Of a stretch of DNA of 64,000 bases, positions 1 through 12,436 are shown in pieces. Under the pieces are notes generated by a model. That model saw only the letters and a list, made by a program, of their open reading frames with translations. It was not told where the DNA came from and ran no database searches. Source of the stretch: a virus. The stretch lies in IMG/VR virus record IMGVR_UViG_3300027917_000040, positions 1-64,000 of that record. One strand, given 5' to 3'. Position 1 is the stretch's first letter; every line of letters begins with the position of its first letter. The position numbers and the translations under genes were made by a program.

Positions 1-4
1 CGAA

Positions 5-151
5 ATGTTGACTGCTCGTGAACAATTAATGGAGGACATTGATTGTATCATCAATAATTACTTTGAATACTTTGATGTTAATTATGACGAAGAACTTGTA
101 AAAGTCTTGTGTGATGCTGTCTGCCGCAACTTTCCTCTAACTGACACCTGA
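5..151 (+). CDS. Small acidic hypothetical protein, possibly cut at its 5' end
   Basis: A 48-codon frame from the first ATG to the TGA at 149-151. The frame is open to the left edge, so the true start may lie outside the window. I do not recognise a function. The peptide is acidic, and its pattern REQLMEDI followed by LCDAVCRNF resembles REQIQEDI and LCEIIVSNF in the gene at 2556-2750, so the two are probably distant paralogues. It is followed by an inverted repeat and the -10 element of the next gene. Confidence 0.55.
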   Translation: MLTAREQLMEDIDCIINNYFEYFDVNYDEELVKVLCDAVCRNFPLTDT

Positions 152-164
152 TTAACTGTCACAA

Positions 165-199
165 GGGGTCTTGTGTTCTCATAAGATCCCTGCCATACT
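165..199 (+). promoter_or_regulatory. Stem-loop plus -10 module before the gene at 224
   Basis: GGGGTCTT (165-172) can pair with AAGATCCC (183-190), with one G-T wobble. A -10-like CATACT follows at 194-199. TTGTGT (171-176) stands 17 bases before it and could serve as a weak -35 inside the stem-loop. First member of the recurrent module described under findings. Confidence 0.5.
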
Positions 200-223
200 T
201 CATTTGTTCACCACTCAGTTCTC

Positions 224-685
224 ATGTCTTACACTCAGTTTGTTGGAACTGCCAAGTGCCGTGTGGCACCAGATTTCGATCTGAACCAGTTTTTGATGTC
301 AACTGCCGATTGGATTGGCAACAATGTTGATGATCAAGAAAATGAGAATCTAAGTGCTAATGATAAAGAAGCACTGTGGCATTATGAAGATCGAACTCAC
401 GAAGCAGTTTGTGATGATCTTTCAGGTTATTTGCAACTTACTGGTGATCAACTACTGATCAATGTGGATTCTGAAGAACAGAATACCATGATTTGGGATT
501 GGTTGATTGATCAAGTGTTGCATTCTGCGATGGTAAGTAACATCATGGAGATCAATTCTGCCACCATTGATTCACGAATGGGGGTCGAATGCGGTGTTTC
601 TTATTACACCAAGGATGGTGATTTCATCGGTTCTGATGATGTATTTGACATCCTGGAGAAGACAGTTCTCAAACCGTCCACCTGA
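224..685 (+). CDS. Hypothetical protein, 153 aa
   Basis: An intact frame starting at the first ATG after the promoter-like module. The protein is acidic and soluble-looking, with no signal peptide or membrane segment. The N-terminus (residues 5-15) reads like a short beta strand, TQFVGTAKCRV, and Asp/Glu-rich helical stretches follow. I recognise no catalytic motif and give no function. It stands alone, with promoter-like modules on both sides, so it is probably transcribed as a single-gene unit in the early/accessory region. Codon use is moderately AT-rich compared with the genes at 4-7 kb. Confidence 0.8.
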   Translation: MSYTQFVGTAKCRVAPDFDLNQFLMSTADWIGNNVDDQENENLSANDKEALWHYEDRTHEAVCDDLSGYLQLTGDQLLINVDSEEQNTMIWDWLIDQVLHSAMVSNIMEINSATIDSRMGVECGVSYYTKDGDFIGSDDVFDILEKTVLKPST

Positions 686-718
686 GGGGTTGACTCCCTC
701 CCATTTCTGCCCTACACT
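684..718 (+). promoter_or_regulatory. Sigma70-like promoter with inverted repeat before the gene at 744
   Basis: TTGACT (690-695), a 17-base spacer and TACACT (713-718) make a good host sigma70 promoter. The -35 box lies in the loop of an inverted repeat, GAGGG (684-688) with CCCTC (696-700), which also overlaps the stop codon of the upstream gene. It is the copy in the cassette series where a recognisable -35 survives. Confidence 0.65.
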
Positions 719-743
719 GTCCAAGTAATCAAAAGAGGCACCA

Positions 744-989
744 ATGCTTTTCAAGTTCGACTCCACTGCCATCTACTCTGTCAAGTGTGAGAATGGCAAC
801 GGTGAGGTTTCTGTGACCTACCGCTCCAACCTCGACAAGTCTTATGACTTTGAGACGGGTGATTCCTTCATCATCGAAGCGTTCTGCACTGAGAACTGCA
901 TCGACGGCAATGCCGAAGAGAAGCAGTCCATCGGCAAGCAGATCGCCCAGTGGAAGAAGGATGGCATCCTGACCCCTGTGACGGTCTGA
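744..989 (+). CDS. Hypothetical protein, paralogue of the gene at 6804
   Basis: 81 codons starting at ATG 744, with AGAGG five bases upstream as a ribosome site. The segment VSVTYRSNLDKSYDF near residue 24, followed later by SIGKQIAQWKKDG, aligns with VEVIYQSNTEKAYGF and SLGRLIHQAKQNG in the gene at 6804-7094. Both therefore carry the same small alpha/beta domain: a two-stranded start with a conserved xxYxSNxxKxYxF, then an amphipathic helix near the C-terminus. No function is known to me. The two copies lie at opposite ends of the cassette region, which suggests duplication followed by divergence. Confidence 0.8.
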   Translation: MLFKFDSTAIYSVKCENGNGEVSVTYRSNLDKSYDFETGDSFIIEAFCTENCIDGNAEEKQSIGKQIAQWKKDGILTPVTV

Positions 990-1002
990 GGAGTGTCCAC
1001 CA

Positions 1003-1036
1003 GGGGGCAGCAATGCCCCCACCCTGCCCCTATACT
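1003..1036 (+). promoter_or_regulatory. Stem-loop plus -10 module before the gene at 1060
   Basis: A perfect 7-bp inverted repeat, GGGGGCA (1003-1009) and TGCCCCC (1014-1020), encloses GCAA, a GNRA-type tetraloop if made as RNA. TATACT lies at 1031-1036. No -35 is visible at the right spacing: the inverted repeat occupies that place. No T-tract follows the hairpin, so it is not a classical terminator. Confidence 0.6.
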
Positions 1037-1059
1037 GACATCAGTTCAAACAACCGGAC

Positions 1060-1353
1060 ATGTTCCACACTTTTGCCAACAAAGGTTTCCAAGTTACTTT
1101 TGCCAACGGGTGGAAGGTCAGCGTAATGTTTGGCGCGGGAAACTACTGCCAAAATCGGTTTGAGGATGTTGATTATCGTGCAACTGTTCCCGTTTGGGGA
1201 TCCTGGCACAGTGAAGATGCAGAAATTGCAGTGTTCACTCCTGATGATGATTTCTCTACCGATTTTCCAGGGTGTCCCGAAGGGGATCAAGTTCTGGGGT
1301 GGATCACCCCGGAAACTATGCTGGAGATTATGACCTGGGCTTCTAATCAGTGA
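1060..1353 (+). CDS. Conserved phage-type hypothetical protein, 97 aa
   Basis: Starts at ATG 1060, about 23 bases after the -10 element, with no clear Shine-Dalgarno. The N-terminus, FHTFANKGFQVTFANGWKVSV, is beta-rich and resembles small proteins I have seen annotated as hypothetical in unrelated phages and plasmids; this is recalled, not searched. A Trp/acidic C-terminal half includes VPVWGSWHSEDAEIAVF. There is no membrane segment. Function is unknown. It is a single-gene cassette whose spacers on both sides are related in sequence to each other. Confidence 0.8.
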   Translation: MFHTFANKGFQVTFANGWKVSVMFGAGNYCQNRFEDVDYRATVPVWGSWHSEDAEIAVFTPDDDFSTDFPGCPEGDQVLGWITPETMLEIMTWASNQ

Positions 1354-1406
1354 GTGTGACGGTTTGAGGAGTGTCCACTGGACCTAGGCATGTCCCAAAA
1401 CTGCCC

Positions 1407-1412
1407 TACACT
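1407..1412 (+). promoter_or_regulatory. -10 element before the gene at 1434
   Basis: TACACT in the context CCTACACTGTCTTCAG, aligned with the -10 elements of the neighbouring cassettes. Only weak 4-bp inverted repeats (GTCC/GGAC around 1373-1395) lie upstream, so this copy lacks the strong GC stem. It lies inside a frame open upstream of the ATG, so the gene should start downstream at 1434. Confidence 0.5.
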
Positions 1413-1433
1413 GTCTTCAGTCGCAACAAAGCA

Positions 1434-1604
1434 ATGGCATTTGTTTCCTGGTCTGTTCACCCGCTCTACGACGAGCAGGACAAGGAGTTCTTCACCAGTG
1501 AAGATCACGCCCTGGATGTTGCCTACGATTGGTCGGCACAGACCCATGGGCGGACAATGATCATCCAACGGGATGGTCAGGAGTGGATGTGGGTCACTGC
1601 CTGA
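1434..1604 (+). CDS. Small hypothetical protein, 56 aa
   Basis: The start at ATG 1434 is chosen because the earlier in-frame GTG (1371) precedes the -10 element at 1407. The protein reads AFVSWSVHPLYDEQDKEF at its start and ends in a short beta hairpin, RTMIIQRDGQEWMWV. It could be a small modulator or binding protein, but nothing specific identifies it. It has no Shine-Dalgarno. It is a single-gene cassette between the genes at 1060 and 1672, and the upstream spacer shares GAGGAGTGTCCAC with the spacer before 1060. Confidence 0.7.
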   Translation: MAFVSWSVHPLYDEQDKEFFTSEDHALDVAYDWSAQTHGRTMIIQRDGQEWMWVTA

Positions 1605-1614
1605 AGTGTCCACT

Positions 1615-1649
1615 GGGGGTCTCCGGATCCCCACTCCATGCCCTATACT
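1615..1649 (+). promoter_or_regulatory. Stem-loop plus -10 module before the gene at 1672
   Basis: GGGGGTC (1615-1621) pairs with GATCCCC (1626-1632) with one wobble, around TCCG, a UNCG-type tetraloop. TATACT is at 1644-1649. The same layout as the module at 1003-1036, and again no -35 hexamer. Confidence 0.6.
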
Positions 1650-1671
1650 GATTCCAGTCGCAACCAAGACC

Positions 1672-2058
1672 ATGCATCGCAATCAAAACGGCGAAGAAGT
1701 GCTCCACAAGGAAACCGTCAGGGTTTACCGCAACCTGCGTGATGGTTGCTGGAGCATCCAACGTAAGATCCCCGGCAAGGGTTGGAGGGTCTGGTTGCGT
1801 TGGGATTACGTTGTGCTCGACAATGCCCACTTCGTTGTAGACGAAAAGGGACGCAACCGTGTTCGCAAAGAGGGCAAAAAGTATGTTCATGCATACTGCT
1901 ATGGCACTCTCATGGCAAACACTTTAGGTTGCAATGAGAAGATGGTAAGGGTTAATTACAACCCATACCGTGATGATCACTTCAACACTCGACATGGTGA
2001 TGTGTATCAAGCAAACCGAGTTTGGTTAACTCACAAGGGTGAAGTCTTCTGCGAATGA
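1672..2058 (+). CDS. Conserved hypothetical protein, 128 aa
   Basis: Starts at ATG 1672, just after the -10/leader; in-frame codons upstream lie across the promoter and are not expected to be translated. The protein is basic. The block VRVYRNLRDGCWSIQ near residue 16, then VVLDNAHFVVDEKGRNRVRKEGKKYVHAY, matches a pattern I remember from small proteins in phages and bacterial plasmids (NxHA after a basic run). Its function is unknown to me. The high Lys/Arg content would suit nucleic-acid binding, but this is inference. A rho-independent terminator follows at once and closes the first cassette block. Confidence 0.8.
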   Translation: MHRNQNGEEVLHKETVRVYRNLRDGCWSIQRKIPGKGWRVWLRWDYVVLDNAHFVVDEKGRNRVRKEGKKYVHAYCYGTLMANTLGCNEKMVRVNYNPYRDDHFNTRHGDVYQANRVWLTHKGEVFCE

Positions 2059-2065
2059 TACATCA

Positions 2066-2087
2066 GGGGATCTTATGATCCCCTTTT
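2066..2087 (+). terminator. Rho-independent terminator after the gene at 1672
   Basis: GGGGATC (2066-2072), loop TTAT, GATCCCC (2077-2083), then TTTT. The word ATCTTATGA in its centre recurs at several other regulatory positions in the left region. Confidence 0.75.
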
Positions 2088-2307
2088 GTAATGTTTTTTT
2101 ATAATTATTTTTTAACAGGGTCGGTGTCGATGTATTTTCGTCTACGAGGATACCCCTGCCTCTCATTTGATTGTCCCCATAGTATAAGACCTCACAGGGT
2201 CTCATGGGGACACCTCGGGACAGTTTCACAAGTGTCACAAGGGGATGCGGACGGACTCCCCCCCCCCCCCCGACCAGTGCCAGTTCTCACAAGTGGCACA
2301 CACCCCC
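2088..2307. other. Structured gene-free stretch
   Basis: No credible gene. It holds a possible long hairpin, CAGGGT (2116-2121) with ACCCCTG (2152-2158, one bulge). A second nested hairpin follows: GTCCCCAT (2173-2180) with ATGGGGAC (2204-2211), inner stem AGACC/GGTCT. A run of 14 C lies at 2258-2271. A frame crosses it, but its composition is dominated by the C run and the hairpins, so I do not call it a gene. A small RNA or regulatory leader is possible. Confidence 0.5.
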
Positions 2308-2336
2308 TTGATCTCGACGAGATGTGCGTGTATCTT
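2308..2336 (+). promoter_or_regulatory. Sigma70 promoter for the operon starting at 2359
   Basis: TTGATC (2308-2313), a 17-base spacer and TATCTT (2331-2336). The leader carries a strong ribosome site, GGGAGG at 2349-2354, four bases before ATG 2359. This contrasts with the leaders of the stem-loop cassettes. Confidence 0.7.
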
Positions 2337-2358
2337 ATGAGAGTCAAAGGGAGGCATC

Positions 2359-2559
2359 ATGCTTTTCCAAATCACAGAAATCGAGTTTGATTTTGAGGAC
2401 TCCGAGGGTATTCTACCTGAGGAGCATCAGAAACCCATCATCGAAGATGTTATCGGTGAAATCTGGGAAGCAGAAGATGAAGATGATCTCGTAGAAGAGA
2501 TCACATGTGCCACAGGATGGTGCATCAAATCCCTCGACTATCGCATTGTTCTCTCATGA
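2359..2559 (+). CDS. Conserved cyanophage-type acidic protein, 66 aa
   Basis: The start is fixed by the GGGAGG ribosome site. The sequence runs MLFQITEIEFDF, then an acidic helix, then DDLVEEITCATGWCIKSLDY. I recall this small acidic domain with its ITCATGW block from cyanophage and cyanobacterial hypothetical proteins. The two Cys in CATGWC could bind metal or be redox-active; that is inference. It is first of a three-gene translationally coupled set: its stop overlaps the next start as ATGA (2556-2559). Confidence 0.8.
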   Translation: MLFQITEIEFDFEDSEGILPEEHQKPIIEDVIGEIWEAEDEDDLVEEITCATGWCIKSLDYRIVLS

Positions 2560-2750
2560 CATTCTCAGACATTTGCAAAATGGTTGATTCGATGGAGAAT
2601 GACATCATTTCAACAAGAGAACAAATCCAAGAAGACATTCTTGCATTTGCATCATCAATGGATGATGAAAAGATTTTCTTCACAGATGAAGTCTTAGATC
2701 AACTCTGTGAAATCATTGTTTCCAACTTCAACAATCTTCTCAACAAATGA
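2556..2750 (+). CDS. Small acidic hypothetical protein, 64 aa
   Basis: I chose ATG 2556 because it overlaps the previous stop as ATGA and gives coupling; an upstream in-frame ATG at 2505 would overlap the previous gene by about 50 bases. The protein is helical and acidic, with REQIQEDI in the middle and QLCEIIVSNF near the end. Both patterns recur in the partial gene at 5-151. No function is recognised. It overlaps the next gene by ATGA at 2747-2750. Confidence 0.7.
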   Translation: MTFSDICKMVDSMENDIISTREQIQEDILAFASSMDDEKIFFTDEVLDQLCEIIVSNFNNLLNK

Positions 2751-2980
2751 ATCTCACAACTGAACAACTCGATGAAATCATCGAGAAATATTGTGATCGT
2801 GTCGTTGATGAAATGGACACGAAATCAATGGAACAGATGCTCTATGATCTGCTGGTAGATTCTTTTCAATCTGCCAGTCAACATGACATGGAAGACCTCA
2901 TCACATCAATTTATGATGAGGAATACTGGCAGGATCTCGTAGAGGATGTGACACAAGAAAAAGTGTCACAAGATACTTGA
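2747..2980 (+). CDS. Small acidic hypothetical protein, 77 aa
   Basis: Third member of the coupled set, starting in an ATGA overlap. It is all-helical and strongly acidic, with pattern LTTEQLDEIIEKYCDRVVDEM and MEQMLYDLLVDSFQSA. The layout of an N-terminal helix followed by a MEDLITSIYDEEYW segment resembles other tiny phage proteins that act by protein contact, but no family is identified. Its stop codon TGA (2978-2980) lies inside the -35 box of the promoter for the next operon, a very compact arrangement. Confidence 0.75.
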   Translation: MNLTTEQLDEIIEKYCDRVVDEMDTKSMEQMLYDLLVDSFQSASQHDMEDLITSIYDEEYWQDLVEDVTQEKVSQDT

Positions 2981-3005
2981 CTTCTCATCAAATCTCGACT
3001 AGAAT
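2977..3005 (+). promoter_or_regulatory. Strong sigma70 promoter for the pair at 3030 and 3173
   Basis: TTGACT (2977-2982), exactly 17 bases, then TAGAAT (3000-3005). The -35 overlaps the stop codon of the upstream gene. One of the best host-type early promoters in the window. Confidence 0.8.
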
Positions 3006-3029
3006 ACACACGTTCATTCATTCATTCCA

Positions 3030-3173
3030 ATGACCAAATCCCTGATGCTCTCCATGCTCCGTCAAGGTTCCACTGGTGAAGAGATCCTTAAGATCCTCGA
3101 CACCATTGTTGCATCCCCTGAGGATGATGCTATCATTGAGAGTGAACCAACTCTAGAATGGATTGAGTTCTAA
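3030..3173 (+). CDS. Small conserved cyanophage-type protein, 47 aa
   Basis: ATG at 3030, 24 bases after the -10 element, stop TAA at 3171-3173. The peptide begins TKSLMLSMLRQGSTGEEILKI and ends PTLEWIEF, an N-terminal amphipathic helix with an acidic tail. I recall very similar short peptides (RQGNTGEEIL, with a terminal EF) from cyanophages and picocyanobacteria, always unnamed. It is joined to the next gene by a TAATG overlap, so the two are translationally coupled. Length and simplicity suggest a small binding protein; no function is known. Confidence 0.75.
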   Translation: MTKSLMLSMLRQGSTGEEILKILDTIVASPEDDAIIESEPTLEWIEF

Positions 3174-3361
3174 TGGAAAAAGCATTTGTCTTTCCCAAAT
3201 CTAAAAAGGCAAAGAATCGTTTCGCAAACTTGATGGATAATCTCGACGAGGTTATCATCGAACAAAACAAAGGTGATCGAGTTTTTGTTACATCAATCAA
3301 TGGTAAAAACCATTTTTGGGTGAACATCAATCACGACAAAGATTGGATCATCGAGTTTTGA
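3173..3361 (+). CDS. Small basic hypothetical protein, 62 aa
   Basis: Starts within the TAATG overlap with the upstream gene and ends just before a strong terminator, so the two form a short operon. Lys-rich N-terminal third (KAFVFPKSKKAKNRFANL), then an acidic LDEVIIEQ helix and a C-terminal beta segment, HFWVNINHDKDWIIEF. No known motif. The sandwich of basic and acidic parts gives no functional clue. Confidence 0.75.
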   Translation: MEKAFVFPKSKKAKNRFANLMDNLDEVIIEQNKGDRVFVTSINGKNHFWVNINHDKDWIIEF

Positions 3362-3367
3362 TCTTAT

Positions 3368-3392
3368 GAGGGGTTAGCACCCCTCTTTTTTT
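3368..3392 (+). terminator. Rho-independent terminator
   Basis: GAGGGGT (3368-3374), loop TAGC, ACCCCTC (3379-3385), then seven T. Directly preceded by ATCTTATGA. Ends the 3030-3361 operon. Confidence 0.85.
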
Positions 3393-3513
3393 ATGTCTAG
3401 TGGAGATGTGCCAGTTTGAGAGGTGGAACAAATCCCCTTGTGGTGTCTCAGGATCTGTGGGATCTTATGTGCATCGGAGGAACACACCCACCACACACCT
3501 CCCGAAACCAACC

Positions 3514-3960
3514 ATGTCCCAGATTGCTGCTCTTCAAACCGAAGTCATCAACCTGCAACAGTCGATGCAAACCATCCAAACTGCGATGGATGCCATCAAC
3601 AGCAAGATTAAAACTCTCACTGAAGCAGAAGAGTTTGATGTCTTTATGCTCAATGAGATGACTCCTTTCTTCGGTGATGATACCTCACGCAACATCATCA
3701 AAGTGTTGCAAAAGTGCCGGACTGAGGATCACAACTATTTCCACTTTTCCCCTGTTTATCAGTGGAAAGGCATCAAAGGTAATCTCGAAAAGCGTCAGTT
3801 GCTGAAACTTATCTCCGCAACTTATCGTGTTAAGTATTCTCGCAATGTGCCCCTGGTGTATTCTCTCCGCAGTGAGATTAAGTATGCCAAGGCATGTCCT
3901 GAGTGTGGTAAACTTGCCTCCGCTTTTTATGATCGTCTGGTGAAAGAAGGCAAGATTTGA
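3514..3960 (+). CDS. Hypothetical protein with N-terminal coiled coil, 148 aa
   Basis: The start is placed at ATG 3514, after a purine-poor leader like those of the other cassettes. An ATG at 3400 would add 38 residues of low-quality sequence. Residues 2-40 form a clear heptad-type helix (QIAALQTEVINLQQSMQTIQ), suggesting a coiled-coil oligomer. The middle part is alpha-helical. The C-terminus has a single CPEC pair followed by a basic helix, perhaps half of a zinc site completed by dimerisation (inference). No family is recognised. No obvious -10 of the cassette type is found upstream. Confidence 0.75.
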   Translation: MSQIAALQTEVINLQQSMQTIQTAMDAINSKIKTLTEAEEFDVFMLNEMTPFFGDDTSRNIIKVLQKCRTEDHNYFHFSPVYQWKGIKGNLEKRQLLKLISATYRVKYSRNVPLVYSLRSEIKYAKACPECGKLASAFYDRLVKEGKI

Positions 3961-3984
3961 TTATAGTGTGACAGTTTATGAACA

Positions 3985-4019
3985 GGGCACCCACGGTGGT
4001 GCCCACCATGCTGTAGGAT
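3985..4019 (+). promoter_or_regulatory. Stem-loop plus -10 module before the gene at 4045
   Basis: GGGCACC (3985-3991) pairs perfectly with GGTGCCC (3998-4004). TAGGAT lies at 4014-4019. An ATG inside this region (4018) overlaps the -10 and is therefore not the start. The upstream words GTGTGACAG and TATGAACAGGG resemble those in later cassette spacers. Confidence 0.6.
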
Positions 4020-4044
4020 GATCAAGTCGTCAGGGATTCCTCCC

Positions 4045-4302
4045 ATGCTGAACCTCACCGAACTGGCAACCGAAACCGCCTGGGTCTCCCAGATCGATCC
4101 CGACTTCCAACTGGACGTGTCTGGTCGTGCCCTGTGGGCAGTCTTCTCTGCTGAGTCCCCCGAGGGTATCCCCTCCGATGCCCTGGACTGCCTGGACGTG
4201 CTCACCCCCGAGCAGATGCCCGTCTGGACCCCCTGGATCGATGCCACTGATGAGCAGATCGCAGATGCCCGTTGCTTCCGTTACATTGTGTTGAGCAACT
4301 GA
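4045..4302 (+). CDS. Small acidic hypothetical protein, 85 aa
   Basis: ATG 4045 follows AGGGA at 4032-4036 and the module at 3985-4019. The protein is acidic and Trp/Pro-rich (ALWAVFSAESPEGIPSDALD, then MPVWTPWIDATDEQIADAR). It looks like a compact domain of two or three helices. Codons end strongly in C or G, unlike the late genes. No function is assigned. The composition change begins at this gene and continues to about 6.75 kb, which suggests a shared foreign origin. Confidence 0.75.
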   Translation: MLNLTELATETAWVSQIDPDFQLDVSGRALWAVFSAESPEGIPSDALDCLDVLTPEQMPVWTPWIDATDEQIADARCFRYIVLSN

Positions 4303-4308
4303 CGCAGT

Positions 4309-4339
4309 GGGGGGCACCGCCCCCCTCCCGTGCTACACT
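4309..4339 (+). promoter_or_regulatory. Stem-loop plus -10 module before the gene at 4365
   Basis: Perfect inverted repeat GGGGGGC (4309-4315), ACC, GCCCCCC (4319-4325), followed by TACACT at 4334-4339. The leader GATCGAGTCAACACGCAAC is nearly shared with the modules before 5752 and 6804. Confidence 0.65.
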
Positions 4340-4364
4340 GATCGAGTCAACACGCAACCGACCG

Positions 4365-4505
4365 ATGGATCGCTTCTGCACCACCGCCCAGATCGATGAG
4401 CATCCCCTGATCGACATCTCCCCCGAGGTGATGACCGACGAGCAACTAGCAGCACTGCTGGAGGTGACGGTGGATCAACTGCTGGGTCTCACGCCAACCA
4501 ACTAA
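4365..4505 (+). CDS. Very small acidic protein, 46 aa
   Basis: ATG 4365 is the first start after the conserved leader. The frame open upstream crosses the promoter and stem-loop and is not expected to be translated. The peptide is mainly one acidic helical domain, ISPEVMTDEQLAALLEVTVD. The pattern of a short helix, a turn and a second helix (TDEQLAALLEVTVDQLLGL) could be a degenerate helix-turn-helix, but it is too short to claim. GC-rich codons match the flanking cassettes. No Shine-Dalgarno is seen. Confidence 0.6.
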   Translation: MDRFCTTAQIDEHPLIDISPEVMTDEQLAALLEVTVDQLLGLTPTN

Positions 4506-4514
4506 CTGGCACAA

Positions 4515-4550
4515 GGGGCATCGACAGGATGCCCCACTACATGCAACAAT
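4515..4550 (+). promoter_or_regulatory. Stem-loop plus -10 module before the gene at 4574
   Basis: GGGGCAT (4515-4521) and ATGCCCC (4529-4535), perfect. AACAAT at 4545-4550 is the likely -10, then GGTTCAACCGC. Here a ribosome site AAAGGA (4563-4568) is present before ATG 4574. Confidence 0.55.
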
Positions 4551-4573
4551 AGGTTCAACCGCAAAGGACACCC

Positions 4574-5299
4574 ATGGCACTGCACTTCTCCACCGGCAAC
4601 GCCAAGATCAACAAAAACACCCTGATCTTCAACCTGCCCGCAGGCAAGACCTGCCCAGGTGCTATGTTCTGCAAATCCTTTGCAGTTGTGACACCTGAGG
4701 GTCGCAAGATTGCTGATGGTCCTCACACTGAGTTCCGTTGCTTTGCTGCATCTGGTGAGGTGCAGTTTGACCAGGTTTTCTTCAACCGTGCCGACAACTT
4801 TCAGCAGGTTTTGGATGTGATGAAGAATGGCAACCTTGCCGACTTTATCAACACCGAACTGCACAAAAACCTCAAGAAAAAGCACACCCGTGTTCGCATT
4901 CATGAGTCGGGTGACTTCTTCAATGCACACTATCTCCAGGCATGGATTATGGTGGCAATGGCAAATCCTACGATCAAGTTCTACTGCTACAGCAAATCCC
5001 TCAACCTTTTTGTAGGTTTGGATCTGCCCAGCAACTTCTACCTCACCGCATCTTATGGTGGCAAGTTTGACTACCTGATCGACGAAGGTTACTTCCCCAG
5101 GTATGCAAAGGTCGTCGAATCCGTGGAGGTTGCTGATGCTCTGGGTCTGCCCGTTGATGTAGACGAACGGCACTGTTTTACTCCCGGTCCTTACGCTCTG
5201 CTGGTCCACAATACCCAACCTAAGGGTTCCGAATGGGGCAAACATGCACGGGCAAACCGTACAGTGAAAAAGGAACTGCGAGCAGCACTGGGGGTGTGA
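4574..5299 (+). CDS. Gp88-domain protein
   Basis: A 241-aa protein that I recognise as the phage 'gene product 88' family. The marks are an N-terminal block, FNLPAGKTCPGAMFCKSF (about residues 18-35), with paired Cys; RVRIHESGDFFNAHYLQAW in the middle; and a C-terminal CFTPGPYALLVHN with another Cys. The Cys residues could form a metal or iron-sulphur site, but this is inference. No activity is established for the family as far as I know. Codon use is less extreme than in the two genes after 5700. It is the largest cassette gene and has its own module, so it is a cargo gene of the array. An antisense frame over it is a codon-bias shadow. Confidence 0.85.
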   Translation: MALHFSTGNAKINKNTLIFNLPAGKTCPGAMFCKSFAVVTPEGRKIADGPHTEFRCFAASGEVQFDQVFFNRADNFQQVLDVMKNGNLADFINTELHKNLKKKHTRVRIHESGDFFNAHYLQAWIMVAMANPTIKFYCYSKSLNLFVGLDLPSNFYLTASYGGKFDYLIDEGYFPRYAKVVESVEVADALGLPVDVDERHCFTPGPYALLVHNTQPKGSEWGKHARANRTVKKELRAALGV

Positions 5300-5319
5300 C
5301 AGTCGGACAACCTGCACAC

Positions 5320-5355
5320 GGGGGCGGGATCGCCCCCCCCTTCATGCCCCATAAT
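5320..5355 (+). promoter_or_regulatory. Stem-loop plus -10 module before the gene at 5400
   Basis: GGGGGCG (5320-5326), loop GGAT, CGCCCCC (5331-5337), perfect. CATAAT lies at 5350-5355, followed by GGTTTCAACGG as in other leaders. The distance from the -10 to ATG 5400 is longer than in other copies. Confidence 0.55.
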
Positions 5356-5399
5356 GGTTTCAACGGGGGGCAAACGGACCTCCCACCACCTCAAGGATT

Positions 5400-5669
5400 A
5401 TGACCACTTGGAACCCCTACAATCCCTGCAGCGTGGGCGACCTTCGCCTTCCCGCCCAGTTCCAACCGCTGCGGTGGACGCCTTTCTACTGTGACACGAA
5501 GGCAGGTCACCCTACCCGTGCCTGGGTTCACCTGCCTGCCGGTCTGGTGCTCTCCTGGGGATGCCCCGTAGAGCAGGGCGAGGAAGTGGAAGTCTGGTCT
5601 CTGGGATCGCTGCTGCTCACTCGCCCCATGACAGAGCAGGAGCGGATCGACTGGGAGTATGATCTGTAA
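5400..5669 (+). CDS. Hypothetical protein, 89 aa
   Basis: ATG 5400, preceded by AAGG as a weak ribosome site. Trp/Pro-rich beta-type sequence: PAQFQPLRWTPFYCDTKAG, then WVHLPAGLVLSWGCPVEQGE and a short C-terminal helix. It looks like a small beta-barrel or SH3-like domain, which I infer only from strand-turn patterning. No family is recognised. GC-rich codon use. It is followed immediately by the spacer TTGTGAACAAACGGGGGATC that recurs after two more genes. Confidence 0.75.
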   Translation: MTTWNPYNPCSVGDLRLPAQFQPLRWTPFYCDTKAGHPTRAWVHLPAGLVLSWGCPVEQGEEVEVWSLGSLLLTRPMTEQERIDWEYDL

Positions 5670-5685
5670 ACCTTTGTGAACAAAC

Positions 5686-5725
5686 GGGGGATCGCCCACG
5701 GTCCCCCCTCCCCAGACGCTACACT
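5686..5725 (+). promoter_or_regulatory. Stem-loop plus -10 module before the gene at 5752
   Basis: GGGGGA (5686-5691) pairs with TCCCCC (5702-5707). TACACT at 5720-5725 is followed by the shared leader GATTCAGTCAACACGCAAC. The upstream word TTGTGAACAAACGGGGGATC is repeated at 6045-6064. Confidence 0.6.
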
Positions 5726-5751
5726 GATTCAGTCAACACGCAACGCGACCC

Positions 5752-6033
5752 ATGATCGAACTGATCGCCAACGCTTACACCCGCCTGATCCGCATCGGTG
5801 CCCGCAGCATCCTGATTCAGCGTGGACCCCATACCTGCAGCGACCTCGCCCGTGCCATGGGGATCGACCCCGCCAAGCATAAGGGCACGCTGCACGCCAT
5901 CCTGGTGGATCTGGAGCGGGCAGGATCGCTCGCTGCCACCCGGAACGATGCCACCGGCAAGCGGGATCTGTGGTTTGCTGTCCCGGTCGCTGTCCGCAAG
6001 CGGGACGCACTCGCTGCTGCCATCCTGGGGTGA
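5752..6033 (+). CDS. Small winged-helix-like DNA-binding protein
   Basis: 93 aa. Residues about 26-70 (HTCSDLARAMGID, then KGTLHAILVDLERAG) have the spacing of a helix-turn-helix with a recognition helix. They are followed by SLAATRNDATGKRDLWFAV, which reads as the beta hairpin 'wing'. The protein is basic overall, fitting DNA binding. It is the only likely regulator in the cassette array, so it is a candidate to act at the inverted repeats near the promoters; that link is inference. No enzymatic part is present. The closest general families are small phage or archaeal-type winged helices. GC-rich codon use. Confidence 0.7.
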   Translation: MIELIANAYTRLIRIGARSILIQRGPHTCSDLARAMGIDPAKHKGTLHAILVDLERAGSLAATRNDATGKRDLWFAVPVAVRKRDALAAAILG

Positions 6034-6056
6034 TCTGTAACGGATTGTGAACAAAC

Positions 6057-6107
6057 GGGGGATCTTCCGGGATCCCCCACGCGATCCGCCCCTGGATGCT
6101 GTAGGAT
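6057..6107 (+). promoter_or_regulatory. Stem-loop plus -10 module before the gene at 6131
   Basis: Perfect 8-bp inverted repeat GGGGGATC (6057-6064) and GATCCCCC (6071-6078). TAGGAT lies at 6102-6107, followed by CAGTTCAAACGAAC. Here the gap to the -10 is longer than in other copies. An alternative repeat GGATC (6070-6074)/GATCC (6083-6087) would restore the usual distance. Confidence 0.55.
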
Positions 6108-6130
6108 TACCTCAGTTCAAACGAACCCCG

Positions 6131-6721
6131 ATGACCACCGCCACCCGCCAGATCACCATCCTGACCCGCGAGGGCGAGGTGACCTTTGCCACCGCCCTGA
6201 CCCTGCCCGAGGCAATCCAGATCCTGCAGGGTCTCCGGAGCAACTTCGCCCAGTCGCTCGCCCAGTCTGCTGCCCGTCGCGGTTTGTCCCCCAAGCAGGA
6301 GGCATGGGCGTTCAAACTGGCACAGGATGCCATCACCCCCGCTGCCCCTGCAGAGCGTAAGGTCGCAGGCGACCTGCAACCGATCCTGGATCTGTTTCAG
6401 CGTCAGAGGGAGCGTGGTGCCAAGCGATTCTCCCTGCGTCTCAACGGTGCCACCCTGTCGCCCTCCCGCGACGGTCGCAACGTGTGGGTTAAGCGTGGCG
6501 ACGCCTTCCTGGGGGGCATCCGTGAGGGCGGTCGCCCTGATCGCTCCATCCCCAGCGACGTGGTGAGCATCCTGCAGGGTGCTGCCAGCGATCCCCTGAG
6601 TGCTGCCGTCGCCTTCGGGCGTGAGACTGGGGAGTGCTCCTGCTGCGGGCGGGAACTGACCGATCCCCGCAGCATCGCCCTGGGGATCGGACCCATCTGC
6701 AAGGACAAGTGGGGACTGTGA
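6131..6721 (+). CDS. DUF6011-domain protein with C-terminal Cys motif
   Basis: 196 aa from ATG 6131; the frame open upstream crosses the -10 element and stem-loop. The C-terminus CSCCGRELTDPRSIALGIGP, then CKDKW, is the signature of the DUF6011 family, a short Cys4-type presumed zinc site found at the end of many phage and bacterial proteins. The N-terminal part is a helical TREGEVTFATALTLPEAIQI region followed by a basic, Gln/Arg-rich middle. Its role is unknown; a nucleic-acid-binding role is inferred from basic charge and the zinc site. Very GC-rich: 40 of 60 bases at 6241-6300 are G or C. Confidence 0.8.
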   Translation: MTTATRQITILTREGEVTFATALTLPEAIQILQGLRSNFAQSLAQSAARRGLSPKQEAWAFKLAQDAITPAAPAERKVAGDLQPILDLFQRQRERGAKRFSLRLNGATLSPSRDGRNVWVKRGDAFLGGIREGGRPDRSIPSDVVSILQGAASDPLSAAVAFGRETGECSCCGRELTDPRSIALGIGPICKDKWGL

Positions 6722-6738
6722 CGGATTGTGAACAAACA

Positions 6739-6778
6739 GGGGCATCCGCCACGGGTGCCCCACCCCAGTCGCTACAAT
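6739..6778 (+). promoter_or_regulatory. Stem-loop plus -10 module before the gene at 6804
   Basis: GGGGCATCC (6739-6747) pairs with GGGTGCCCC (6753-6761) with one wobble. TACAAT is at 6773-6778, followed by GATCGAGTCAACACGCCAC. An ATG inside the -10 (6777) is not a sensible start. Confidence 0.65.
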
Positions 6779-6803
6779 GATCGAGTCAACACGCCACCGC
6801 ATC

Positions 6804-7094
6804 ATGACCACCACCACCGCCCCCGTGTTCCGCACCTTTACCCGCGAGGAGTCTTCCGCTATCTACAACCTGCACATCGAGCAGGGCAACATCATCACCG
6901 GGATGCCCGGATTCGTGGAGGTTATCTATCAGTCCAACACTGAGAAGGCATACGGATTCACCGCAAATCCTGAGTTTGTGATGGATCTTATTGAGATCAT
7001 CTCCTGGACTGATTGCAAGGGAATCTCTCTGGGTCGTTTGATTCACCAAGCGAAACAGAATGGCAACCTTGAATCTATCGAATCCGCAGAGTGA
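6804..7094 (+). CDS. Hypothetical protein, paralogue of the gene at 744
   Basis: 96 aa starting at ATG 6804. Residues about 37-51 (VEVIYQSNTEKAYGF) and a C-terminal SLGRLIHQAKQNGNLESI match the corresponding blocks of the protein at 744-989, so the two share one small domain. The first 35 residues are an extra segment not present there. The reading frame begins GC-rich and becomes AT-richer towards the 3' end, as if the promoter and 5' part were joined to an older gene. It is the last gene of the cassette array, followed by a hairpin terminator. Confidence 0.75.
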   Translation: MTTTTAPVFRTFTREESSAIYNLHIEQGNIITGMPGFVEVIYQSNTEKAYGFTANPEFVMDLIEIISWTDCKGISLGRLIHQAKQNGNLESIESAE

Positions 7095-7108
7095 GTTAGG
7101 TATACTTA

Positions 7109-7130
7109 GGGGGCACACATTGCCCCCTTT
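7109..7130 (+). terminator. Hairpin terminator closing the cassette region
   Basis: GGGGGCA (7109-7115), loop CACAT, TGCCCCC (7121-7127), then TTTCCTT. Unlike the internal cassette hairpins, it has a short T-tract. Confidence 0.7.
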
Positions 7131-7276
7131 CCTTACACCTATAAGCAATTCTGATCGATCAGCAGTCCTTATCGGTCGTATTCTTACCGATAAGCAGTTC
7201 TTATGGGTGTGCCGGTTCGCCGCCCGGCGGGCGTAACGAAAAAAGATGGGTCCTTCTAACCTACAAATCTTGTCCT
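7131..7276. other. Repeat-bearing intergenic stretch at the composition boundary
   Basis: No gene. Three imperfect copies of AGCARTYCTTATSGG start at 7144, 7161 and 7193. TTATCGGT (7169-7176) pairs perfectly with ACCGATAA (7186-7193). A GC-rich CGCCC-GGC-GGGCG hairpin follows near 7210-7235. The stretch separates the GC-rich array from the AT-rich remainder. Confidence 0.55.
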
Positions 7277-7304
7277 TTGAGAGATATATAACAAACGCTA
7301 TATT
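7277..7304 (+). promoter_or_regulatory. Possible sigma70 promoter before the gene at 7314
   Basis: TTGAGA (7277-7282), 16 bases, TATATT (7299-7304). It would start transcription almost at the ATG, so the gene would be nearly leaderless or start later; uncertain. Confidence 0.35.
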
Positions 7305-7313
7305 ATTTTGAAA

Positions 7314-7541
7314 ATGAAATACATCGGACCTGTAAAAATTTCCCGCAATAAAAAATATATGAAAACCCCCTATTGGAACATATATCGTGCAGTTTTTGCA
7401 GGATGGTTAATAAGATACCCAAGGAACATATTAAGATACATATTAATTCTCATATTTCTCTTATGGATCGCCCCCCTGCCCTGGAAATTTCTCATAATAT
7501 TTCTGACACTCCTCATAATAATCGATAAGAAAAGAAGATAA
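7314..7541 (+). CDS. Small membrane protein, 75 aa
   Basis: ATG 7314 is preferred over the TTG two codons earlier. The N-terminal 30 residues are basic (KISRNKKYMKTPYWNIYRAV). They are followed by two adjacent hydrophobic stretches (ILRYILILIFLLWIAPL, then FLIIFLTLLIII) ending in DKKRR. This fits a hairpin of two membrane helices with both ends inside the cell. No holin or other family can be named from sequence alone. AT-rich codons match the rest of the genome, in contrast to the array upstream. Confidence 0.65.
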   Translation: MKYIGPVKISRNKKYMKTPYWNIYRAVFAGWLIRYPRNILRYILILIFLLWIAPLPWKFLIIFLTLLIIIDKKRR

Positions 7542-7565
7542 ATATGGCAGTGACTCGCATTGTGC

Positions 7566-7766
7566 ATGAATGAAACCAAGATTTATCACATATATTTAAA
7601 AGATAGGTGTGTATATCATAATCTACCAGAAGAAGAATTTAAGAATTATTGGGATAATTTGAAGTATCTCACAGATCTTATAGGGGGTAATAATTACAAG
7701 GTTTCTGATTTATCTTATGAGGAACTCACAGTAAATAAGAAAGCGGCGGCAGAATCGTCACACTGA
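7566..7766 (+). CDS. Conserved cyanophage-type small protein, 66 aa
   Basis: ATG 7566 is chosen over an in-frame TTG two codons upstream. The sequence KIYHIYLKDRCVYHNLPEEE, then FKNYWDNLK and YEELTVNK, follows the pattern of small proteins I remember from many cyanophages, always without a function. A short N-terminal beta hairpin and a central helix are likely. The -35 box of the promoter for the next operon begins two bases after its stop. Confidence 0.7.
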   Translation: MNETKIYHIYLKDRCVYHNLPEEEFKNYWDNLKYLTDLIGGNNYKVSDLSYEELTVNKKAAAESSH

Positions 7767-7767
7767 C

Positions 7768-7796
7768 TTGACCGTTATCATAAAGTGTATTAAAAT
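7768..7796 (+). promoter_or_regulatory. Strong sigma70 promoter for the glycosyltransferase operon
   Basis: TTGACC (7768-7773), exactly 17 bases, TAAAAT (7791-7796), 23 bases before ATG 7820. Near consensus. Confidence 0.8.
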
Positions 7797-7819
7797 AACA
7801 TTGAAGGTTTGAAAGAATT

Positions 7820-8728
7820 ATGGCAAAAGGATTTACAGTAAAAGCAAACCCCCCGAAGGTGGGTGGAGGAATTACCCAGTCTACTCAAGAGTGGGATTAT
7901 GCAAAGATCAAAGAGAGAATGAGAGGAAAGGCGATTGTCTTCTGCTTACCTGGCAGAGGATGTTCGTTTCAATTTCTCAAATCATTCGTACAACTTTGCT
8001 TCGATCTTGTGCAAAATGGGATGAACATTCAGATCTCACAAGATTACAGTTCAATGGTAAACTTCGCAAGATGTAAATGTCTTGGTGCGAATGTTCTGCG
8101 AGGACCTGATCAGATTCCGTGGGACGGTAAGTTACCTTATGATTATCAACTGTGGATTGACAGTGATATTGTGTTTGACACTAATAAGTTTTGGCAATTA
8201 TGTGATCTTGCATTCCCAGAGGACGCAGTGATTTATAGGGAAGAAGAAGGAGAAAACGGAGAAATTGAGAAGAAAGCAGTATTCATTGAAAAGCAAGATT
8301 TGAATGGAAATGTAATTGCCCGTAGTCTCAAAGCAGATCCAGAGAAGGACCGCCCTATTGCTGCTGGTTGGTATTGCACGGAAGACGGTAGGACAACTTC
8401 TGTGGCACATTGGTTAGATGAGGATGACTTCCGTAATAATGGTGGAGTCATGAATCATGAGATGGTTGATGGTATCAGTAAGCGTCGTAAACCATTTACA
8501 GTTGATTATACTGGATTTGGTTGGGTTATGATTAAGAACGGTGTCTTTGAGCATGAGGAAATGAAGTATCCATGGTTTGCTCCTAAGATGCAAGTCTTTG
8601 AGTCTGGTGCCGTACAAGATATGTGTGGAGAAGACGTATCGTTCTGTCTTGATGCCAAGGAAGCAGGTATGGAAATCTGGTGTGATCCTCGGATTCGTGT
8701 TGGACATGAGAAGACCAGGGTGATCTGA
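7820..8728 (+). CDS. GT-A type glycosyltransferase-like protein
   Basis: 302 aa. A Rossmann-like start, AIVFCLPGRGCSFQFLKSFV, then LWIDSDIVF (about residues 110-118), whose DSD is the expected metal/nucleotide-sugar DxD of GT-A enzymes. Near the C-terminus GEDVSFCLDAKEAG (about 272-285) and DPRIRVGHEK hold the acidic and His residues typical of these proteins. Such genes are common in cyanophages; substrates are unknown. Modification of phage DNA, virion protein or host surface are the usual guesses. It is first of a three-gene coupled operon with its own promoter (7768-7796) and terminator (9046-9071). The stop overlaps the next start as TGATG. Confidence 0.8.
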   Translation: MAKGFTVKANPPKVGGGITQSTQEWDYAKIKERMRGKAIVFCLPGRGCSFQFLKSFVQLCFDLVQNGMNIQISQDYSSMVNFARCKCLGANVLRGPDQIPWDGKLPYDYQLWIDSDIVFDTNKFWQLCDLAFPEDAVIYREEEGENGEIEKKAVFIEKQDLNGNVIARSLKADPEKDRPIAAGWYCTEDGRTTSVAHWLDEDDFRNNGGVMNHEMVDGISKRRKPFTVDYTGFGWVMIKNGVFEHEEMKYPWFAPKMQVFESGAVQDMCGEDVSFCLDAKEAGMEIWCDPRIRVGHEKTRVI

Positions 8729-10540: not shown

Positions 10541-12436
10541 ATGGCATTAGTAAATTTTTCCAATTTAGACTTTGATCAGATAAAAACTTCGATTAAAGAT
10601 TATTTAAGATCTAACTCAGAATTTACTGACTACGATTTTGAAGGATCTGCTTTATCCACAGTTATTGACATTCTTGCTTATAACACTTATATTAGTTCAT
10701 ACAATGCTAACATGGTTAGCAATGAAGTTTTTATTGACAGTGCAACTTTAAGAGAAAATATTGTTTCTTTGGCGAGAAATATTGGTTATGTACCAAGATC
10801 AAGAACTTGCTCTAGAGCAATCATCTCTTTTTCTGTGGATACATCAAGTTTGGCTGAACGTCCAATTACTTTAAACCTTAAAAAGGGATTGTGTGCAACC
10901 GGAGGAGGTTATTCTTTTAACACTCTAGAAGATGTTTTAGTTCCTGTTATTAACAATACTGCAAATTTTAAAGAAATTGAAATAGTAGAAGGAACTCAAA
11001 TTACACAAACGTTTACAGTAAATGCCAATAATCCAGAACAAAAATTTATTTTGGATAATGAAAATATAGATACATCAACAATTAGAGTTACAGTAAGAGA
11101 GGGAGAAACTAGTACAGTAACTAGAAGATATAATGTAGCAGATAGTTTATTCAATATAACAAAAAACTCTAAAGTATTTTTTATTCAAGAAATATCAGAC
11201 CAAAGATATGAACTTATTTTTGGTGATGGTGTATTTGGTTCAAAATTAGAAAATCTTAGTATTGTAGAAGTAGATTACTGCATATCAAATGGACCAGATA
11301 CTAATGGTGTTAATACATTTAATTATGCTGGTAGAACTTTTACTAATAATGATGAAATTATCACATCTGGATTTTCTATCATTTCGACAAATTCATCATC
11401 TAGGAATGCAAAAGAAATAGAGAGTGTAAACTCAATTCGTAAATATGCACCAAGAGTTTATGCTTCTCAATATAGAGCGGTAACTGCAACGGACTATGAA
11501 TCATTAGTACCACAAATTTATGCAGAAACTGAGTCTTTGTCAGTTTTTGGAGGAGAGACTTTAGATCCTCCTCAATATGGGAAAGTTTTTATAACTATAA
11601 AGCCTTTAAACGGTCAGTTTATTCCAAATTCAGTAAAAACAAATATTATAAATCAACTTCGCAGATATACTGTTGCTGGCATTGTTGTTGAAATTTTAGA
11701 TCTTAAATATCTTTATGTTGAATTTATATCAAATGTATATTACAATAGGTCAGAAGTTTCATCTACTTCCGGATTATTATCTGCTGTTGGAAATAGATTG
11801 AATACATATGCTAACTCTAGTGAACTCAATCAATATGGTGCTAGATTTAAATATAGCAAATTTTTAAATGTAATAGATACCTCAGATAGATCAATCACAT
11901 CAAATGTAACCAGCATTGTAATTAGAAGAGATATTAGAGCAGCATTAAATGAATTTGCCGGTTACGAGATCTGCTTTGGAAACCAATTTTTTATAGAATC
12001 TAAAGACGGATACAACTTAAAGTCATCTGGTTTTAAAGTTTCTGGAATTTCAAATACTGTTTATATTACGGATATACCAAATTCGGATTTAAAAAAAGGA
12101 AAATTAATATTATTTAAAATATCGGAAAGTAATAATGTAGTTATTGTTAGAAAAAACGTAGGGGAAATTGATTATATTAAAGGTGAGATCCTTTTATATC
12201 CAATAAATATTATTCAAACCAGTAAAGTAGTTGACAGTGAAAATCTTATAGAATTGTCTATAAGACCAAGATCCAATGATATTATCGCACTGCAAGATTT
12301 GTATTTACAACTTGATGTAGCTTCTTCAACAATTAATTTAATACCAGATACAATTTCTTCTGGTTCTGATACTTCTGGGACCATATTCAAAACATCATCC
12401 AGTTATACCGATAACAGCAAGTTAATAAGAAATTAA
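10541..12436 (+). CDS. gp6: Baseplate wedge subunit gp6
   Basis: 631 aa, close to T4 gp6 (660). The N-terminus, NFSNLDFDQIKTSIKDYLRS, then DYDFEGSALSTVIDILAYNT, is the diagnostic start of the gp6/gpJ-like baseplate family. The central part contains RKYAPRVYASQYRAVTATDY, a conserved core of this fold. gp6 dimers form the inner ring that holds the wedges together and signals sheath contraction. It starts directly at the end of gp25, so the two are coupled. Codon use is strongly AT-rich. Confidence 0.95.
   Translation: MALVNFSNLDFDQIKTSIKDYLRSNSEFTDYDFEGSALSTVIDILAYNTYISSYNANMVSNEVFIDSATLRENIVSLARNIGYVPRSRTCSRAIISFSVDTSSLAERPITLNLKKGLCATGGGYSFNTLEDVLVPVINNTANFKEIEIVEGTQITQTFTVNANNPEQKFILDNENIDTSTIRVTVREGETSTVTRRYNVADSLFNITKNSKVFFIQEISDQRYELIFGDGVFGSKLENLSIVEVDYCISNGPDTNGVNTFNYAGRTFTNNDEIITSGFSIISTNSSSRNAKEIESVNSIRKYAPRVYASQYRAVTATDYESLVPQIYAETESLSVFGGETLDPPQYGKVFITIKPLNGQFIPNSVKTNIINQLRRYTVAGIVVEILDLKYLYVEFISNVYYNRSEVSSTSGLLSAVGNRLNTYANSSELNQYGARFKYSKFLNVIDTSDRSITSNVTSIVIRRDIRAALNEFAGYEICFGNQFFIESKDGYNLKSSGFKVSGISNTVYITDIPNSDLKKGKLILFKISESNNVVIVRKNVGEIDYIKGEILLYPINIIQTSKVVDSENLIELSIRPRSNDIIALQDLYLQLDVASSTINLIPDTISSGSDTSGTIFKTSSSYTDNSKLIRN

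Follow-up and report, generated by a model that had tools for sequence, protein, structure and literature searches.

The spacers of a gene array near the start of the IMG/VR viral contig IMGVR_UViG_3300027917_000040 (72,943 bases), of which bases 1–64,000 form the window analysed here, are probably compact end-plus-start modules, in which the hairpin of the upstream gene is combined with the next gene's promoter and an operator is used instead of a -35 box. The parts of the module, their geometry, the mutual exclusion of operator half-site and -35 box, the way in which the hairpin depends on an upstream stop codon, and the spread around unrelated genes all emerge from sequence statistics.

We suggest that the preceding transcript would carry the GC-rich hairpin at its 3' end and be stopped or protected by it, and that the next gene would be expressed from a promoter with a TANNNT -10 hexamer; the A of a conserved CA, located 12 bases downstream of the hexamer's first base, is the probable +1. 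In most promoters, a half-site or a full 24-bp palindrome, the right half of which starts 39–41 bases before the -10, would replace the -35 box, and a dimeric DNA-binding protein on this operator may help RNA polymerase. A minority class would use a canonical TTGAC -35 box and no operator. The hairpin would occupy the -35 position because the gap of ~30 bp between operator and -10 is the sole room for it between adjacent genes.

Promoter core and its spread among phages

A core profile trained on 11 cores of the window and iterated over 207 loci (2.07 Mb) yielded 799 matches, compared with none in the reversed sequence used as control, and 379 of these modules are non-redundant. The relatives were gathered by pattern scans of viral contigs, those from the TATACTGANNTCAGTTCAAAC scan being among the matches listed; the sequences of the set are related, an effect that redundancy filters and within-contig tests reduce, not fully. 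Outside the training set, a module at contig position 67,878 (L004:5879) scores 32.7, compared with 14.7 for the best non-module site of the window. It lies outside the accessory array in front of a core cobS-like AAA ATPase gene, with the palindrome halves TGTGCCAGTC (left) and GAGTGTCCAC (right).

The core consensus runs from a C-rich tract through TGACCCCC, TATACT, GATCTC and AGTTCAAACGAAC, with its A as putative +1, to the ATG. The TANNNT -10 hexamer and a CA initiator-type dinucleotide are conserved, the latter at the expected start of RNA polymerase, and are followed by a short conserved leader (AGTTCAAAC...) of ~17–20 nucleotides to the ATG. An open reading frame (ORF) with ATG start is found within 90 bases in 373 of the 379 modules, for 331 of these at 27–32 bases from the start of the hexamer. 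We note that the transcript's first bases, AGTTCAAAC (hexamer +12 to +21, in all modules), are very strongly conserved, more so than initiation requires, and may include a translation or stability signal of the leader.

In total, 768 modules stand in front of 122 protein clusters, and the carriers include S-PM2 and S-SRM01. The complete S-PM2 genome has 13 modules at 8.6–24.6 kb and one weak match elsewhere. Two scans of 84,980 species genomes for the core with its leader returned zero and one match, the latter in Aliidiomarina, and a host-derived promoter was rejected as no host matched. BLAST of one whole spacer against phages gave no match, and the box pattern TTGTGAACAAACNGGGG returned coding or chance matches, save for the near-identical contig L009. 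In the S-SRM01 spacers at L056:17098-17673, a TACACT-like box is followed by a GGGG..CCCC hairpin, the tail of which is T-rich, and by another TACA(C/T)T-like box; these spacers may represent an additional type of module.

Half-sites, palindromes and -35 boxes

The box that precedes the GC-rich inverted repeat is the half-site AACTGGCACA or AAGTGTCCAC, which is often the right half of a 24-bp palindrome (TGTGnCAGTT-N4-AACTGnCACA) centred near -54 from the putative +1. A half-site with a match of at least 8/10 is present in 216 of the 379 modules, compared with 4.5% of shuffles, and for 195 of the 216 its start lies 39–41 bases before the hexamer. The distance stays at 38–42 across inverted-repeat lengths of 17–34 (r = -0.10). 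The left half, which in many cases overlaps with the upstream gene's end, is separated by a gap of exactly 4 in 69 of 71 palindromes.

TTGAC at 16–18 bp spacing is observed in 10.6% of modules, compared with 1.1% of shuffles, and sits inside the inverted repeat. It is rare alongside the half-site (7/206, as against 33/173 without half-site; Fisher P = 9e-7), and this exclusion is also seen at 55% redundancy (P = 0.006), within contigs (Mantel-Haenszel odds ratio 0.10, P = 4e-4) and among modules bearing an inverted repeat only (P = 9e-7). The results for half-site, inverted repeat and exclusion all persist after removal of pattern-selected modules. An activator site that substitutes for the -35 box would be expected to show this mutual exclusion, and the half-site or palindrome is likely to represent such a site, newly recognised here. 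The symmetric 24-bp site and its geometry would suit a dimeric repressor equally well, for example one that silences accessory genes after the early phase; we nevertheless regard repression as rather unlikely, since an activator predicts exclusion with the -35 box, whereas a repressor site would be expected in both promoter classes.

The inverted repeat as the end of the preceding gene

Inverted repeats, called at a score of at least 18 within 55 bases upstream of the hexamer, are present in 48% of the 379 modules, compared with 10% of shuffles. Their centres lie 18–21 bases before the hexamer in 102 of 182 cases, where shuffles show a flat distribution, and a second peak at 41–42.5 bases corresponds to the palindrome, a separate element. 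Once every module selectable by a search pattern is removed, near inverted repeats still occur in 32%, as against 2.7%.

The presence of the repeat depends on the upstream stop codon: it is found in 110/176 modules (62%) when the stop lies 29–50 bases before the hexamer, in 8/108 (7%) when coding sequence continues to within 18 bases of the hexamer and in 3/38 (8%) when the stop is >75 bases away or none was found, a setting in which the half-site is still present in 68–90%, with 74% for the group as a whole. The dependence is retained without pattern-selectable modules (90/154 versus 3/38, P = 5e-9). Because the inverted repeat tracks the upstream stop and the half-site does not, the former would be part of the preceding gene's end and the latter part of the promoter. 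The G-rich arm is on the 5' side of the transcript in 108 of 115 near hairpins (108:6), which fits a transcript hairpin, and a hairpin-based transcript end would be plausible given that Rho is missing from S. elongatus and Synechocystis (PMC3219970). The inverted repeat is therefore most likely a hairpin of the upstream transcript.

The initial annotation had offered two options for the repeat, a terminator fused to the next promoter or an operator that replaces the -35 box. The former is favoured by the stop dependence, in the form of a terminator-like hairpin. The latter would account for the peak of centres at 18–21 bases and for a weak dyad at 19–21 that persists where the upstream gene is distant or overlaps, yet appears improbable because the repeat differs in sequence between modules, vanishes if the preceding stop is remote (3/38), has a one-sided G-rich arm as for a transcript, and coexists with a TTGAC -35 box, which lies inside the repeat and is found in 19/49 repeat-bearing modules without half-site. 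The repeat as a -35 substitute was rejected on stop dependence and co-occurrence with TTGAC. The related analogy with a MotA-like activator is not supported for the repeat, but may hold for the element that directly precedes it, the half-site or palindrome, which the initial annotation had not singled out. A further possibility is a hairpin-dependent promoter, in which the repeat is extruded from the DNA and brings an upstream box to -35 distance; the TTGTGA box of the spacers at 5686 and 6739 would then fall 17–18 bp from the -10. We consider this scarcely credible, as looping would scramble the spacing, whereas the half-site to -10 distance is constant for any repeat length, and the repeat is missing from many modules that share the core. 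Cruciform or looped-out spacing was rejected on the constancy of this distance.

The modules of the window

An inverted repeat is present in 11 of the 12 spacers between 165 and 6773, and the layout proposed in the initial annotation (stop codon, GC-rich inverted repeat, -10-like hexamer, leader, ATG) is found wherever it had been claimed. As also claimed, the repeats vary in sequence, and their centres lie 16.5–23.5 bases before the first base of the hexamer in ten copies, with the copy at 6057 farther away. The twelfth spacer (1354–1433), with a promoter core and merely a weak inverted repeat, was beyond the earlier list. The features are as follows, with distances from repeat centre to the first base of the hexamer.

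154–223 (+), module before gene 224–685: half-site AACTGTCACA 154–163, inverted repeat 164–191, CATACT 194–199, distance 16.5; leader atypical, weakest core
672–743 (+), module before gene 744–989: half-site AACCGTCCAC 672–681, inverted repeat 684–700, TACACT 713–718, distance 21
690–695 (+), -35 box TTGACT of the module before gene 744–989, enclosed by inverted repeat 684–700, 17-bp spacer
991–1059 (+), module before gene 1060–1353: half-site GAGTGTCCAC 991–1000 (left half TGTGACGGTC), inverted repeat 1003–1020, TATACT 1031–1036, distance 19.5
1369–1433 (+), module before gene 1434–1604: half-site GAGTGTCCAC 1369–1378 (left half TGTGACGGTT), weak inverted repeat, TACACT 1407–1412
1604–1671 (+), module before gene 1672–2058 (Phage_L5_gp82 family): half-site AAGTGTCCAC 1604–1613, inverted repeat 1614–1633, TATACT 1644–1649, distance 20.5
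2059–2100 (+), hairpin with T-run after gene 1672–2058: no module next; canonical terminator, in contrast to module hairpins
3362–3396 (+), hairpin with T7 run after gene 3173–3361: no module next
3985–4044 (+), module before gene 4045–4302: inverted repeat 3985–4004, TAGGAT 4014–4019, distance 19.5; no recognisable half-site
4309–4364 (+), module before gene 4365–4505: inverted repeat 4309–4325, TACACT 4334–4339, distance 17; half-site 4297–4306 weak and off-register
4504–4573 (+), module before gene 4574–5299 (GP88 family): half-site AACTGGCACA 4504–4513, inverted repeat 4515–4535, AACAAT 4545–4550, distance 20
5295–5399 (+), module before gene 5400–5669: palindrome 5295–5318 (3 mismatches), inverted repeat 5320–5337, CATAAT 5350–5355, distance 21.5
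5686–5751 (+), module before gene 5752–6033: inverted repeat 5686–5707, TACACT 5720–5725, distance 23.5; upstream box TTGTGAACAAAC, a degenerate palindrome
6057–6130 (+), module before gene 6131–6721 (DUF6011): inverted repeat 6057–6078, TAGGAT 6102–6107, exceptional distance 34.5
6739–6803 (+), module before gene 6804–7094: inverted repeat 6739–6761, TACAAT 6773–6778, distance 23; left half TGTGACGGAT upstream
7095–7140 (+), hairpin downstream of the array's last gene, with a T-rich tail

The T-tailed stand-alone hairpins at 2059, 3362 and 7095 are unlike most module hairpins. The gene at 3514 has no module in front; an operator-like palindrome TGTGCCAGTTTGAGAGGTGGAACA (3 mismatches) is located at 3407–3430, upstream of this gene (3514–3960), but no promoter core is recognisable at the usual spacing from it. 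Another operator-like palindrome, at 2216–2239, adjoins a run of 14 C at 2257–2270 that lies within a possible inverted repeat (GGGGATGCGGACGGACTCCCCC...) and may be a homopolymer or assembly error.

The contig comes from a T4-like cyanophage, as judged from matches of its neck and terminase to S-SM2, S-SKS1, P-TIM68 and S-SRM01. The baseplate region follows downstream of the array, a position that the array shares with the regions of small genes in S-SRM01, DSL-LC03 and S-PM2. G+C content is 43–58% across bases 1–8000 and 27–39% for most of the remaining window.

Mobility of the modules

Modules with at least 90% identity are common to 44 pairs of unrelated gene families; the upstream flank is also the same in 21 of these pairs and both flanks are unrelated in 17, as judged from ungapped flank identity, for which some values near 0.45–0.49 may conceal indels. 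Spacers are common to related phages around different genes, an outcome whose absence the initial annotation had named as refuting its proposal, and its suggestion of a cyanophage counterpart to the promoter early stem-loop (PeSL) cassettes is supported by the same module preceding non-homologous genes. We suggest that modules pass between non-homologous genes through recombination.

Near-identical modules before unrelated genes, together with the frequent overlap of the left half with the end of the upstream gene, would also be consistent with palindrome and hairpin being recombination or RNA-end elements of one mobile sequence, such that the geometry stems from common descent and no protein binds. 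This explanation is unlikely, given that half-site and -10 are separated by hypervariable sequence (repeat lengths of 17–34) while their distance is kept to within ~1 bp, that the palindrome gap is exactly 4 in 69/71 cases, and that the known ORFanage deletion of S-PM2 (breakpoints 5799/15339, PMC4503421) has neither of its ends in a module.

Candidate regulators

Within the array, gene 5752–6033 (+) encodes a 93-amino-acid winged-helix, MarR-like protein, with an AlphaFold pLDDT of 83 and MarR-family proteins as the nearest PDB folds, and a tblastn search of the loci gave 17 matches to it at E<=1e-4. This protein is a possible regulator. S-PM2 lacks the family, however, so that the protein cannot read the palindrome in general, and it was rejected as a universal regulator on its absence from S-PM2 and others. 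An unannotated S-SRM01 ORF at 90334–90636 (L056:15335-15637), with a module upstream, is a possible distant relative that has an RKRER tail and 16% identity and is not detected by the family profile. MotA was rejected as regulator, as the window's contig, G001, S-PM2 and S-SRM01 have no PF09114 match; MotA is absent from cyanomyoviruses (PMC2984593).

Several of these observations count against the module as we propose it. No MotA match was found in those four sequences, and the winged-helix family is absent from S-PM2 and two other module-bearing records. About 37% of non-redundant modules have neither a good half-site nor a -35 box. At least 4 T in the next 8 bases follow just 13 of the 115 near hairpins, so that most are not canonical intrinsic terminators, and the weak dyad excess near 19–21 persists with coding run-through or a distant stop.

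We tentatively envisage, at somewhat less than even probability, a cyanomyovirus regulon in which one dimeric non-MotA regulator, of phage or host, would bind the 24-bp palindrome near -54 and replace the -35 box in front of scores of accessory genes and a few core ones, beside a regulator-free -35 class, giving a two-class early/middle programme on mobile modules.

Comparison with known systems

Early and middle transcription control in T4-like cyanophages has been called unclear (PMC2984593). The modules supply a testable sequence model of early gene control with two promoter classes and predicted 5' ends, an operator usable as bait for its regulator, and a way to delimit separate transcription units among many small cyanophage genes. 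They also bear on CCTATACTGATCTCAGTTC, which Table 2 of PMC10976474 gives as a putative Pho box for S-PM2d250, in a report in which PhoB binding to it is not described. This sequence equals the -10 and leader of the module with hexamer 22069 in S-PM2 (AJ630128), and is better read as a promoter core because it recurs before >100 unrelated gene families. The tag S-PM2d250 appears at two loci.

The PeSL cassettes of RB49 and phi1, the subject of Arbiol et al. in 2010, reportedly consist of a sigma70-like promoter and a stem-loop in short spacers, and are said to lie in hyperplastic regions around non-homologous genes. The cyanophage modules likewise appear to place a sigma70-like promoter in the spacer (TANNNT and CA, with a TTGAC -35 box in ~10%) next to a stem-loop (in 62% when the stop is 29–50 bases upstream), and are repeated around non-homologous genes in clusters, those of S-PM2 being confined to 8.6–24.6 kb. 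They differ from PeSLs in their half-site or palindrome at fixed distance, mostly without a -35 box, in their conserved transcribed leader, in the lack, mostly, of a T-run after the stem, and in their cyanophage hosts.

In T4, the MotA box lies near -30. The modules would resemble T4 middle promoters, with their MotA box and -10, in having an upstream element instead of a -35 box, here exclusive with it, and differ from them by a palindrome centred near -54, no detected MotA gene and no extended -10. A TANNNT -10 without strong -35 consensus is usual in cyanobacteria (PMC3219970) and is shared with SigA promoters of the picocyanobacterial hosts, whereas the long core and conserved leader are not a host signature. 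PeSLs have been sought in S-PM2, where one early promoter and two stem-loops (11369–11391 and 16829–16854) were reported, the density was considered too low and the mechanism judged unlikely (PMC4503421). The stem-loop at 11369–11391 lies directly upstream of the module hexamer at 11400, and the 13 modules place PeSL-like elements in the very phage where they had been deemed too sparse to matter.

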